A stretch of 64,000 nucleotides of DNA from assembly GCA_034506255.1 (NCBI GenBank), contig JAPDPX010000005.1, positions 372,001 through 436,000 of the forward strand, given 5' to 3'. The notes beneath the pieces were generated by a model. The model was not told the origin of the DNA. It saw only the letters and a list, made by a program, of their open reading frames with translations, and did not search any database. The translations under genes and the position numbers were made by a program. Source of the DNA: a candidate division KSB1 bacterium (GTDB lineage Bacteria; Zhuqueibacterota; Zhuqueibacteria; Zhuqueibacterales; Zhuqueibacteraceae). Below are positions 30,895 through 34,450 of this stretch, piece after piece (within the stretch, counting starts at the first letter, position 1; each line of letters begins with the position of its first letter).

Positions 30895-31176
30895 ATGGAC
30901 ATCCAACGTTTCGAGATCCTGGAGGAAAAAATCGCGCAAGCGATCAAGATGATACAGACCCTCAAAGGGGAGAACGAGGAATTGCGCCGCCGGCTGGAGG
31001 CGGCGGAGGTGCGGTTGCGTGAAAAGGAGCAGGAATTGCAGGCGGTGCGCGCGGAGCTGGGCAGCGTGCAGCATCGCGCCGAGCAATCGCGCCAGTATCA
31101 GGAGCGGGAGGAGAAAATCCGCAGCAAGGTTGAGGAGATGTTGGCCAAGCTGGAGGAACTGCAATTGCAGTTCTGA
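30895..31176 (+). CDS. ZapB-like coiled-coil cell division protein
   Basis: A 93-residue protein that is almost entirely one charged coiled-coil (heptads of Leu/Ile/Val with Glu, Arg and Gln, from about residue 8 to 90). The size and the position right before zapA match ZapB or its analogues, which cross-link ZapA and FtsZ filaments at mid-cell. No sequence signature separates ZapB from other short coiled-coils, so the assignment rests on context. ATG 30895 is preceded by GAGGAC. The gap to zapA is 53 bases. Confidence 0.65.
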   Translation: MDIQRFEILEEKIAQAIKMIQTLKGENEELRRRLEAAEVRLREKEQELQAVRAELGSVQHRAEQSRQYQEREEKIRSKVEEMLAKLEELQLQF

Positions 31177-31229
31177 CCTCCTGGCGTCGCGTGTGGCATT
31201 CTCATGGCAGACACTTTTCTCGATATCCT

Positions 31230-31517
31230 ATGCCTGAAGGCACCGTTCTGAAAGTCAACATTTACGGCACCGAGTATCCCATCCGGGGCGAGGTCGATGT
31301 GGAATACATCCGCCGCGTGGCGGAGTATGTCGATCGCAAGATGCGGGAAGTCGACCAGAGCACGGCGGCGAAATCCTCGCTGAAGGTGGCGATCCTGGCG
31401 GCGCTCAACATCGCGGACGAGCTGTTCCGCGAACGCGACGAGAAAGCAGGTCTGTTGAAGAGTTTCGAGGCCAAGGCCGAACAGTTGTCGAAGCTTTTGC
31501 ATGAGAATTTGAAATAG
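31230..31517 (+). CDS. zapA: Cell division protein ZapA
   Basis: A 95-residue ZapA-family protein. It has a globular N-terminal domain starting VLKVNIYGTEYPIRGEVD and YIRRVAEYVDRKMREV, the conserved KVAILAALNIADELF segment and a C-terminal coiled-coil. ZapA bundles FtsZ filaments. ATG 31230 was chosen because it matches the family start; an upstream in-frame codon adds 13 odd residues. As in several phyla it is followed by a structured RNA candidate and then rny. Confidence 0.88.
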   Translation: MPEGTVLKVNIYGTEYPIRGEVDVEYIRRVAEYVDRKMREVDQSTAAKSSLKVAILAALNIADELFRERDEKAGLLKSFEAKAEQLSKLLHENLK

Positions 31518-31518
31518 A

Positions 31519-31642
31519 CCGGCAGCCGGCTGCCCAACTGTGATTGCCCCGGTGACAAGGTCTTCAAACGACGCGACGCGCTGCGCCAGCGGCGGCGGCG
31601 TATTTCTTTGAAGGACTTGGCAGCGGGGCTTTTTGTTTTCAC
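31519..31642 (+). ncRNA. Rod-like structured RNA, 6S RNA candidate
   Basis: Between zapA and rny the sequence folds into one long interrupted rod. GCCCCG (31546-31551) pairs with CGGGGC (31624-31629), CAAG (31556-31559) with CTTG (31616-31619) and TTCAAA (31563-31568) with TTTGAA (31607-31612). The tip is CGCTG-CGC-CAGCG (31579-31591). TTTTTGTTTT follows the outer stem. A second palindrome, GGCAGCCGGCTGCC, lies at 31521-31534. 6S RNA is often found directly downstream of zapA and is a rod with internal bubbles, so this is a good candidate. At under 125 bases it is short for 6S. A plain terminator for zapA is the alternative. Confidence 0.4.
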
Positions 31643-31712
31643 CTGTGAACTTGTGCACAAGCATGCGACTGACGATTTCGTGCCCGGGAAATCGGGAGGC
31701 AGTGGAGGAAGA

Positions 31713-33281
31713 ATGACGATCAGTGAGATCGGGCTCATCGTGGCGGCGTTCAGCGCCGGCATGCTGACCGGCTGGTTGCTGCGGCAAAAGATCGGCCGTG
31801 CGCGCCGGGCGCACGCCGAAGCCACCGCCCGCCAAATCATCGCGGAAGCCACCCAGGAGGCGGAAAACCTCAAACAGGCCAAGCTGCTGGAAGTGCGCGA
31901 TGAGCTCTTTCAAAAACGGCAGGAGCTCGAACAGGAGATCAAAAATCGGCGGCACCAACTTCAAAAACAGGAGAGCCAACTCGCTGCGCGGGAGACCAGC
32001 CTCGACCGCAAAGTCGACCTGCTGAATCAAAAGAAACAGGAGCTCGCCAAGCTCGAGGAAAACCTGCTCAGCCGCGAAGCCAGCCTGAAACTGCAAGCCC
32101 AGGAACTCGACCGCTTGCTTGCCGAGGAAAACAAGAAACTCGAACAAATTTCCGGGCTGACCAACGAAGAAGCCAAACGCATTCAGCTCAACAACTTTCT
32201 CGAACTGGCCAAGCAGGAGGCGGCGCAGACGGTCAAAGAAATCAAGGATCATGCCCGCATGGTGGCCAGCCGCGAGGCCAGAGACATTCTGGTGCAGGCG
32301 ATTCAACGCACCAACATCAGTCATGTGGTGGAATCCACCGTCTCGGTGGTGCGCCTGCCCAACGATGACATGAAAGGCCGCATCATCGGCCGCGAGGGCC
32401 GCAACATCCGCTCGTTCGAGGCCGCCACCGGCATCGAAGTGCTGATCGACGACACCCCCAACGTGGTGATGCTCTCCGGCTTCGATCCGGTGCGCCGGGA
32501 AATCGCCAAACTCTCGCTGGAAAAACTGATCACGGACGGCCGCATTCATCCCGGCCGCATCGAGGAAGTGGTTGAAAAAACCCGCAGCGAGGTCGAGGAA
32601 CTCATTCGCGAGGCCGGCGAGCAGGCCATGCTGGAGGTGGGCCTGCACGGCCTGCACGTCGAGCTGATCCGGTTGCTGGGCAAACTGAAATATCGCAGCA
32701 GCGAGGGACAAAACCTGCTGCAGCACAGCATCGAGACTGCACTCATCGCCGGAGTGATCGCCGCGGAAGTCGGCCTGGAGTCCCAGGTGGTCAAACGGGG
32801 CGCGCTGCTGCACGAAATCGGCGCGGCAGTCGAGCGGGAAACCGACACCAGCGCCGCGGAAATGGGCGCCGCTCTGGCGCGACGCTACGGCGAAAACGAA
32901 GCGGTGGAAAACGCCATTCTGTTCGCCAACAACCCCAATCGCAACGGCCAGATGCTGACGGCGGCCTCCCTCATCGTGGCCACCGCCAATGAAATCTCGC
33001 TCTCCCGGCCGGGCGCACAGAAGGAAACGCTGGCGCAATACTTTCAGCGCATGTCGGCGCTGGAAAATATCGCCAACTCCTTCCCCGGCGTCCTCCGCAC
33101 CTACGCGCTGCAGGCCGGCCGCGAAATTCGTGTGATCGTCGAGCACACCAAGGTGGACGATGCCCGCGCCGAACAGATGGCGGTGGACATTGCGCGCAAA
33201 ATTCAGCAAAACGTCCACTACCCCGGCCAGATTCGCGTCACCATCGTGCGGGAATACCGGGCGGTGGATTACGCCAAATGA
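31713..33281 (+). CDS. rny: RNase Y homologue with degenerate HD active site
   Basis: A 522-residue protein with RNase Y architecture: an N-terminal membrane segment (IGLIVAAFSAGMLTGWLL), a long coiled-coil (about 25-195), a KH domain (KGRIIGREGRNIRSFEAATG) and an HD domain. The HD site is altered. The HD pair is HE (residues 367-368, LLHEIGAA). The next His (SHVEIG in B. subtilis) is Ala in SAAEMG. The His-His pair is Ala-Asn (FANNP), and the final metal Asp is Asn (TANEIS). Only the first His (QHSIE) and the His of HE remain. RNA binding and membrane anchoring look intact, but endonuclease activity is doubtful. AGTGGAGGAAGA fixes ATG 31713. ymdB follows, as in B. subtilis. Confidence 0.88.
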   Translation: MTISEIGLIVAAFSAGMLTGWLLRQKIGRARRAHAEATARQIIAEATQEAENLKQAKLLEVRDELFQKRQELEQEIKNRRHQLQKQESQLAARETSLDRKVDLLNQKKQELAKLEENLLSREASLKLQAQELDRLLAEENKKLEQISGLTNEEAKRIQLNNFLELAKQEAAQTVKEIKDHARMVASREARDILVQAIQRTNISHVVESTVSVVRLPNDDMKGRIIGREGRNIRSFEAATGIEVLIDDTPNVVMLSGFDPVRREIAKLSLEKLITDGRIHPGRIEEVVEKTRSEVEELIREAGEQAMLEVGLHGLHVELIRLLGKLKYRSSEGQNLLQHSIETALIAGVIAAEVGLESQVVKRGALLHEIGAAVERETDTSAAEMGAALARRYGENEAVENAILFANNPNRNGQMLTAASLIVATANEISLSRPGAQKETLAQYFQRMSALENIANSFPGVLRTYALQAGREIRVIVEHTKVDDARAEQMAVDIARKIQQNVHYPGQIRVTIVREYRAVDYAK

Positions 33282-33643
33282 GTTTCGGTTCCCTGTCCGC
33301 CGGCATGATGGAGGCAGCATGCGGCGCAGACGGAAGGCGTTCGTGGAAAAAGCCCCGCGGTGTGCGCCTCGCTCCCTGGAATCCCTGTCGCTGTCACCCG
33401 GGCCGCCAGGCAACCGCCCGTGAAAAGCACGGCCCCCTCGCGCGGGGTTTGATTTTCGCCTGAGCAAACATGCCTTTCCGGGCACGCTGCCGGCGGTGCA
33501 GCGTTTATCCAACCCGTGGACCGGACCCTGCCGATTGTGCGCCACACCGATCGACAGCGCGCCTGAATTTCTTCTTGTAAATTTGCTTTTTTAGCCTATA
33601 TTTCGGCTGTCGCAACAATCTCCAAGCAAACGCCCGCAGGATA
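33282..33643. other. Intergenic region between rny and ymdB
   Basis: About 360 bases without a supported gene. The right end holds the ymdB promoter (33575-33602). The left part is ordinary GC-rich sequence. Confidence 0.5.
33575..33602 (+). promoter_or_regulatory. Promoter for ymdB
   Basis: TTGTAA (33575-33580), 16 bases, TATATT (33597-33602), 42 bases before the ATG. The -10 is identical to those of several other promoters in the window. Confidence 0.55.
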
Positions 33644-34450
33644 ATGAAAGAAAACGAAGCGTGGACGCTCCTTTTTATTGCCGATATCATCGGCCAGCCC
33701 GGCCTGGAGATTGTCGCGCGTCTCTTGCCCGGCTTGAAACAGCAGCATCAGCCGGATTTGGTCATTGCCAACGGTGAGAACGCCGCCGAAGGCAAAGGCA
33801 TCACCGCCGCGCTCGCCAGACAATATCTCGAGCTCGGCATCGATGTCATTACCGGCGGCAACCATACCTGGGAAAATCCGGAAGTCTTCAAAATCTGGCA
33901 AAAGGACGAGGGCCTGAGCAGCCGGGTGTTGCGGCCGGCAAACTATCCGCCGCCCAATCCCGGTCGGGGCTACACCCTGGTCGACCTGGAAGAGGGCGTC
34001 AAAGCCGCGGTCATCAATTTGCAGGGGCGGACTTATCTGTATTCGATCGACTGCCCCTTTCGCACCGCGGATGAAATCCTGCGCCGCATCGACCGCCAGG
34101 CGAGCGTTGTAATCGTCGATTTTCATGCCGAGGCCACTGCCGAAAAAATGGCCCTGGCCTGGCATCTGGACGGCCGCGTCAGTGCCGTCATCGGCACGCA
34201 CACCCACGTGCCAACCGCAGATGAGCAGATTCTGCCCGGTGGCACCGCCTACCTTACCGACCTGGGCATGACCGGCCCGTTTGACTCGGTGATCGGCATG
34301 AAAAAAGAGACCGCCATCAAACGGTTCATGCGGGGCGTGCCCATGCGTTTCGAAGTGGCCAGTGGCAACGTCCGGCTGTGCGGCGCGCTCATCCGCATCA
34401 GCAAGACGACAATGAAAGCGGTCAGCATCGAACGGTTGTTTCTGCAATAG
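33644..34450 (+). CDS. YmdB-family metallophosphoesterase (TIGR00282 type)
   Basis: A 268-residue calcineurin-like phosphoesterase matching the YmdB family throughout: LFIADIIGQPGLE (first metal Asp), IANGENAAEGKGIT, VITGGNHTWEN, VVIVDFHAEATAEKMA and GTHTHVPTADEQILPGGTAYLTDLGMTGP with the C-terminal His ligands. B. subtilis YmdB cleaves 2',3'-cyclic nucleotides and affects biofilm genes. All expected metal ligands are visible, in contrast to the rny homologue upstream. It has its own promoter. Confidence 0.92.
   Translation: MKENEAWTLLFIADIIGQPGLEIVARLLPGLKQQHQPDLVIANGENAAEGKGITAALARQYLELGIDVITGGNHTWENPEVFKIWQKDEGLSSRVLRPANYPPPNPGRGYTLVDLEEGVKAAVINLQGRTYLYSIDCPFRTADEILRRIDRQASVVIVDFHAEATAEKMALAWHLDGRVSAVIGTHTHVPTADEQILPGGTAYLTDLGMTGPFDSVIGMKKETAIKRFMRGVPMRFEVASGNVRLCGALIRISKTTMKAVSIERLFLQ

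Follow-up and report, generated by a model that had tools for sequence, protein, structure and literature searches.

RNase Y starts mRNA decay in many bacteria. The enzyme dimerises, and its anchor, coiled-coil, KH and C-terminal regions place it, bind RNA and make dimers, with the C-terminal region a proposed dimer contact in B. subtilis (PMC9775385). HD phosphodiesterases use the motif H...HD...H...HH...D. An inactive example is the HD-GYP protein Bd1817, in which the HD fold is kept, the ligands are changed, with Asn replacing the last Asp, and the GYP motif is degraded (PMC8177086). In RNase Y of H. pylori, a single H374A change is inactivating (PMC11821409). Among RNA-decay enzymes of Firmicutes, RNase J2 is a paralogue of RNase J1 that has lost its second-metal ligands; it forms heteromers with J1, is proposed to regulate J1 and keeps weak activity (PMC5383250). 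Our literature search for RNase Y paralogues or pseudo-enzymes, with most subscription journals outside its coverage, found no such pair described. Here we analyse a conserved RNase Y homologue from candidate division KSB1 that has lost most of its HD metal ligands and is encoded in the same genome as an intact RNase Y.

An RNase Y homologue with a dismantled active site

The window, the whole stretch of 64,000 nucleotides analysed here, contains the gene and its conserved neighbours as follows:

30895–31517, + strand: zapB-like and zapA genes, conserved neighbours upstream of the ancestral rny locus (profile matches, locus comparison)
31713–33281, + strand: degenerate RNase Y homologue of 522 amino acids at the ancestral rny locus (open reading frame, TIGR03319, Pfam, neighbours)
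31713–32312, + strand: N-terminal membrane helix and long coiled-coil (Pfam RNase_Y_N, residues 8–200; long helices in the predicted model)
32325–32588, + strand: KH RNA-binding region, residues 205–292 (GREG loop intact; near-invariant positions kept)
33003–33278, + strand: C-terminal region, residues 431–522, conserved (alignment; dN/dS 0.05)
33644–34450, + strand: ymdB-like phosphoesterase, conserved neighbour downstream of rny (TIGR00282, Pfam, locus comparison)

The protein matches the ribonuclease Y model TIGR03319 over its full length (621.6 bits against a cut-off of 454.35) and carries the Pfam domains RNase_Y_N, KH_1 and HD. It resembles RNase Y (rny, also ymdA or cvfA) in architecture, overall sequence, the GXXG loop of the KH domain (GREG) and its place beside ymdB at the conserved rny locus of the lineage, where gene order is as in single-copy relatives. 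It differs from RNase Y at the active site, where the HD motif reads H-HE-A-AN-N. By sequence the window protein belongs to the RNase Y family, but its active site argues against classing it as an RNase Y enzyme. HDOD domains are inactive HD-domain proteins, and the window protein has a weak HDOD match (E 1e-4, just below cut-off). On the opposite strand, a frame of 815 amino acids lies antisense to rny (window 31098–33545, − strand); the gene is GC-rich and this frame looks like a shadow of the coding strand. An Rfam search around the gene returned nothing real.

We compared the gene across about 220 genomes in all. Within KSB1, two RNase Y copies occur in families f1 and f2 (of the same order as the window genome), f7 (of the same class) and, in other parts of the phylum, f13 and f14. 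The active-site positions of the window protein are:

32724–32726, + strand: first ligand His, H338, kept (alignment)
32811–32816, + strand: HD pair, now H367-E368 (E368 fixed in 13 of 13 f1/f2 orthologues)
32823–32825, + strand: Lys of IGKA, now A371 (alignment)
32853–32855, + strand: ligand His of the GTH motif, now A381 (alignment)
32925–32930, + strand: His-His pair, now A405-N406 (alignment)
32988–32993, + strand: last ligand Asp and its neighbour (AADA), now N426-E427 (both fixed in 13 of 13 f1/f2 orthologues; ANE recurs in Latescibacterota)
33018–33023, + strand: Arg-Arg of GARRE, now Q436-K437 (alignment)

To place these changes we used a reference set of 166 RNase Y proteins with all seven HD ligands, in which 61 positions are at least 97% invariant. 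The window protein has lost 10 of the 61, and the losses are concentrated on the metal ligands: five of seven ligands are gone (D368E, H381A, H405A, H406N and D426N), compared with 5 of the 54 other invariant positions (Fisher p = 0.0008). Non-ligand losses include K371A in IGKA and the Arg pair 436–437 in GARRE, which lie in the ligand motifs or adjoin them, and none of the 15 invariant positions of the KH region has changed. Comparison of species within the genus gives a dN/dS of about 0.06 for the whole gene and 0.04 for the HD region. Ligand enrichment, an intact KH region and low dN/dS together establish that the ligand loss is real, targeted and above chance. Each sequence feature that a sequence-only reading of this DNA had picked out is present, the frame and its coordinates included; the protein carries LLQHS, LLHEIGAA (HE at 367–368), DTSAAEMG, FANN and TANEIS, and the comparison bears out its description of a dismantled HD site beside an intact KH domain.

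The fold predicted for the window protein retains the HD helices (mean pLDDT 82). A sequence search of the PDB found no matching solved structure, and a fold search with the model gave weak domain-level matches only, to the HD protein 2pq7 (TM 0.54 on the target), the HD domain of PgpH and several KH proteins.

A second, intact rny in the same genome

A second rny, 43% identical to the window copy, lies on another contig of the window genome (G000:C9:56725-58257) with complete catalytic motifs LEHS, LLHDIGKA, GTH, SHH and AAD, so that an active-looking paralogue accompanies the degenerate protein much as RNase J1 accompanies J2. RNase E/G and a PSP1 protein of the RicT type are encoded as well, and an RNase J model that matches 13 of 14 control genomes found no RNase J in this one. 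Because a second intact rny is present, the lineage has by sequence not lost its decay nuclease, which leaves without support the suggestion of the sequence-only reading that the usual enzyme had disappeared. That reading had also named a complete second rny, together with absence of this copy from relatives, as grounds for abandoning its view; the second copy exists, but the window copy is conserved in degenerate form in sampled relatives of its own family and order and in families f7, f13 and f14.

In the KSB1 families sampled, loss of active-site residues goes with presence of the second copy. In the two-copy families, 0 of 24 copies at the ancestral locus are intact, all 24 having lost ligands, and 24 of 24 second copies are intact; single-copy relatives have an intact rny at the ancestral locus in 36 of 36 cases. 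These counts come from related genomes, many of them drafts, and as tabulated overstate independence. Wherever neighbours were checked, the degenerate copy occupies the locus rplT-pheS-pheT-zapB-zapA-rny-ymdB-folD, the site of the working enzyme in single-copy relatives, and ccmE/ccmF adjoin the second copy in f1, f2 and f7. One genome (G003) seems to be without the second copy. A gap in the assembly explains this best, since a contig of 3254 bases stops just before ccmE/rny2.

Erosion takes a different form in each group of families. Degenerate copies of f1 and f2 have the HE pair and Asn for the last Asp; those of f7 retain the HD pair, have lost GTH and HH and have Asn for the last Asp in half; and those of f13 and f14 have lost GTH and HH and retain the last Asp in three of four. 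In genus g2 of f1 (L008-L010) the His-His pair is still present as AHH, displaced by a one-residue insertion, possibly an intermediate toward the state of the window protein.

Loss of catalytic residues where a second copy is present could also mark a duplicate that is decaying on its way out. The degenerate gene is nevertheless under strong purifying selection, with a dN/dS much like that of the intact second copy and as low in the HD region as given above, in agreement with the sequence-only reading, which had set random decay aside. Its frame is intact in all sampled genomes, it is retained across several families, the KH invariants of the window protein are perfectly conserved, and the degenerate copy is the one at the ancestral locus and not the newcomer. 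Selection and conservation contradict a decaying duplicate, to which we give hardly any credence. The dN/dS values show that the degenerate copy is needed and are silent on its purpose.

Independent erosion in Latescibacterota

The same search turned up a locus in Latescibacterota (L045) with the same kind of ligand loss. Two RNase Y copies are present in 43 of 56 Latescibacterota genomes (for example L222/L251 in G107 and L234/L267 in G117). Of 36 copies at the pheT-zapA-rny-ymdB locus, 1 is fully intact. Erosion there is graded: nearly every copy has lost the GTH His, a third have lost the second pair His, and a quarter have Asn in place of the last Asp, sometimes with the letters ANE of the window protein. 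This gradient suggests an order of loss, with the GTH His going first and then the second pair His or the last Asp. Many of these copies have lost the GTH His alone, and copies eroded only in part, especially those of Latescibacterota, may retain activity.

Second copies in Latescibacterota are intact in 21 of 24, the remaining three lacking one His of the HH pair only. Among single-copy genomes (n = 11), seven encode a fully intact protein, in three the first pair His is the sole loss and one (L272 in G112) has a degenerate copy; no intact second RNase Y was found in that genome, which reflects either a gap in the assembly or a genuine loss. Several RNase Y proteins (L229-L231 in G080-G082, L254, L263 and L264, three single-copy genomes included) are intact apart from the first His of the HH pair, which suggests that this residue may be dispensable. 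Two further features were observed among second copies. Intact ones (L249-L271, L202) carry a C-terminal extension that, where measured, runs 41–90 residues past the IREY region and is mostly absent from other copies, and in the genome of L209 a frame change and a stop interrupt the second copy (G089:C1:100033-101530), either a sequencing error or a broken gene.

In trees calculated without the motif columns, each degenerate group clustered with intact proteins from its own phylum. The KSB1 and Latescibacterota erosions do not share an origin (common origin rejected, p = 6e-5), and a single origin inside KSB1 (f1, f2, f7, f13 and f14) is compatible with the tree test (p = 0.54); the firm number of independent erosions is two. 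For the second copy of KSB1, a recent duplication that would make the two copies sisters was rejected (AU p = 0.003). Duplication within the class is compatible with the test (p = 0.25), and an old paralogue and transfer are both possible. In an unrooted tree with long branches, a branch with support 97 sets apart the second copies of both phyla together with one from a Calditrichota genome, which hints that they may form one old RNase Y subfamily.

In other phyla, all ligands are intact in 77 proteins, and 37 of 38 genomes have one full-length copy. The exception is a Calditrichota genome (G143; L048 and L274) that carries two copies, both with intact active sites; a second copy alone thus does not appear to force erosion.

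Most of the genomes are drafts, and the second copy could in principle come from another organism through misassembly or misbinning. Such an artefact is highly improbable: both copies recur in many genomes with family groupings largely congruent between trees, they lie together on one contig of about 5–6.5 Mb in four Latescibacterota assemblies (G107, G108, G117 and G118), and in the window genome, whose assembly is rated 100% complete, the contigs that carry them measure 547 and 312 kb.

Possible functions of the degenerate copy

We consider three readings of the eroded site. In one, the HD pocket no longer cuts RNA and has been retooled to bind a small ligand or metal, acting as a sensor that controls RNA binding or a partner enzyme. 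E368, N426, E427 and K437, in or near the old site, are fixed in 13 of 13 f1/f2 orthologues, with other residues there in single-copy relatives; Latescibacterota acquired the ANE pair a second time; the predicted structure retains the HD fold; and the HD region is about as constrained as the rest of the gene. Orthologues in f7, f13 and f14, however, differ at most of these positions, so no single new site is common to the whole clade. We regard a retooled pocket as unlikely.

Less likely still is that the protein remains a nuclease with a changed or one-metal site, perhaps of other specificity. The ligands H338 and H367 remain, metal binding by E368 and N426 is possible in principle, many Latescibacterota copies lack only the GTH His and some of those are possibly active, and RNase J2 is a weak but real nuclease without second-metal ligands (PMC5383250). 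The window protein, by contrast, has lost both acidic ligands together with the IGKA Lys and the Arg pair, and Asn for the last Asp accompanies inactivity in the HD-GYP protein (PMC8177086). Since five ligands and further site residues are gone, RNase Y-type cleavage by the window protein appears very unlikely, and we infer that it would lack nuclease activity. Weak metal binding is possible, as the two remaining His residues are joined by Glu and Asn, which can bind metal.

We consider it probable that the window protein is instead a retained pseudo-nuclease, a membrane-anchored, coiled-coil, KH-type RNA-binding protein that lacks RNase Y-type cutting and acts alongside the active RNase Y. 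The RNA-binding scaffold envisaged in the sequence-only reading is plausible; by sequence, the anchor, coil, KH and C-terminal regions are intact and the metal site is destroyed. In this scheme, the ancestral RNase Y would have lost its metal-dependent HD site, presumably once a second RNase Y was present. The eroded copy may then hold or select RNA at the membrane in RNA decay, and may pair with the active RNase Y, most likely by forming a hetero-oligomer via the coiled-coil, such that one subunit type would cut and the other bind or regulate; these last steps are less certain. The length ahead of the KH domain is equal in both copies (221–228 amino acids) and their predicted helices are nearly the same, making a mixed coiled-coil feasible. 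From architecture and co-occurrence, dead and active copies possibly form a hetero-oligomer.

RNase J1 and J2 provide an analogy, in which an active paralogue forms heteromers with a weakened one. RNase J2 differs in belonging to the metallo-beta-lactamase family and in keeping weak activity; unlike it, the window protein is the ancestral-locus copy, which has lost its site with both acidic ligands gone. Inactive HD-domain proteins such as Bd1817 share with the window protein a kept HD fold, changed ligands and the change of the last Asp to Asn, but the HD domain of the window protein sits in a KH and coiled-coil RNA-decay protein.

Implications

A conserved and repeated active/dead RNase Y pair, with the dead gene at the ancestral locus, appears undescribed, although its elements are familiar. 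More tentatively, with the odds somewhat against it, the pair may constitute a two-subunit RNase Y, in which an active and a dead RNA-binding subunit share a mixed membrane-bound oligomer. On this view the ancestral gene would have eroded into the dead subunit after a second RNase Y became available, and would have done so separately in two or more phyla. The NCBI family model would call a probable non-enzyme 'ribonuclease Y' across several clades, a name that is misleading. A naturally dead and strongly conserved RNase Y would separate the roles of membrane anchor, coil and KH domain from cutting, and the fact that an active/dead pair evolved more than once suggests that the two copies divide the work.
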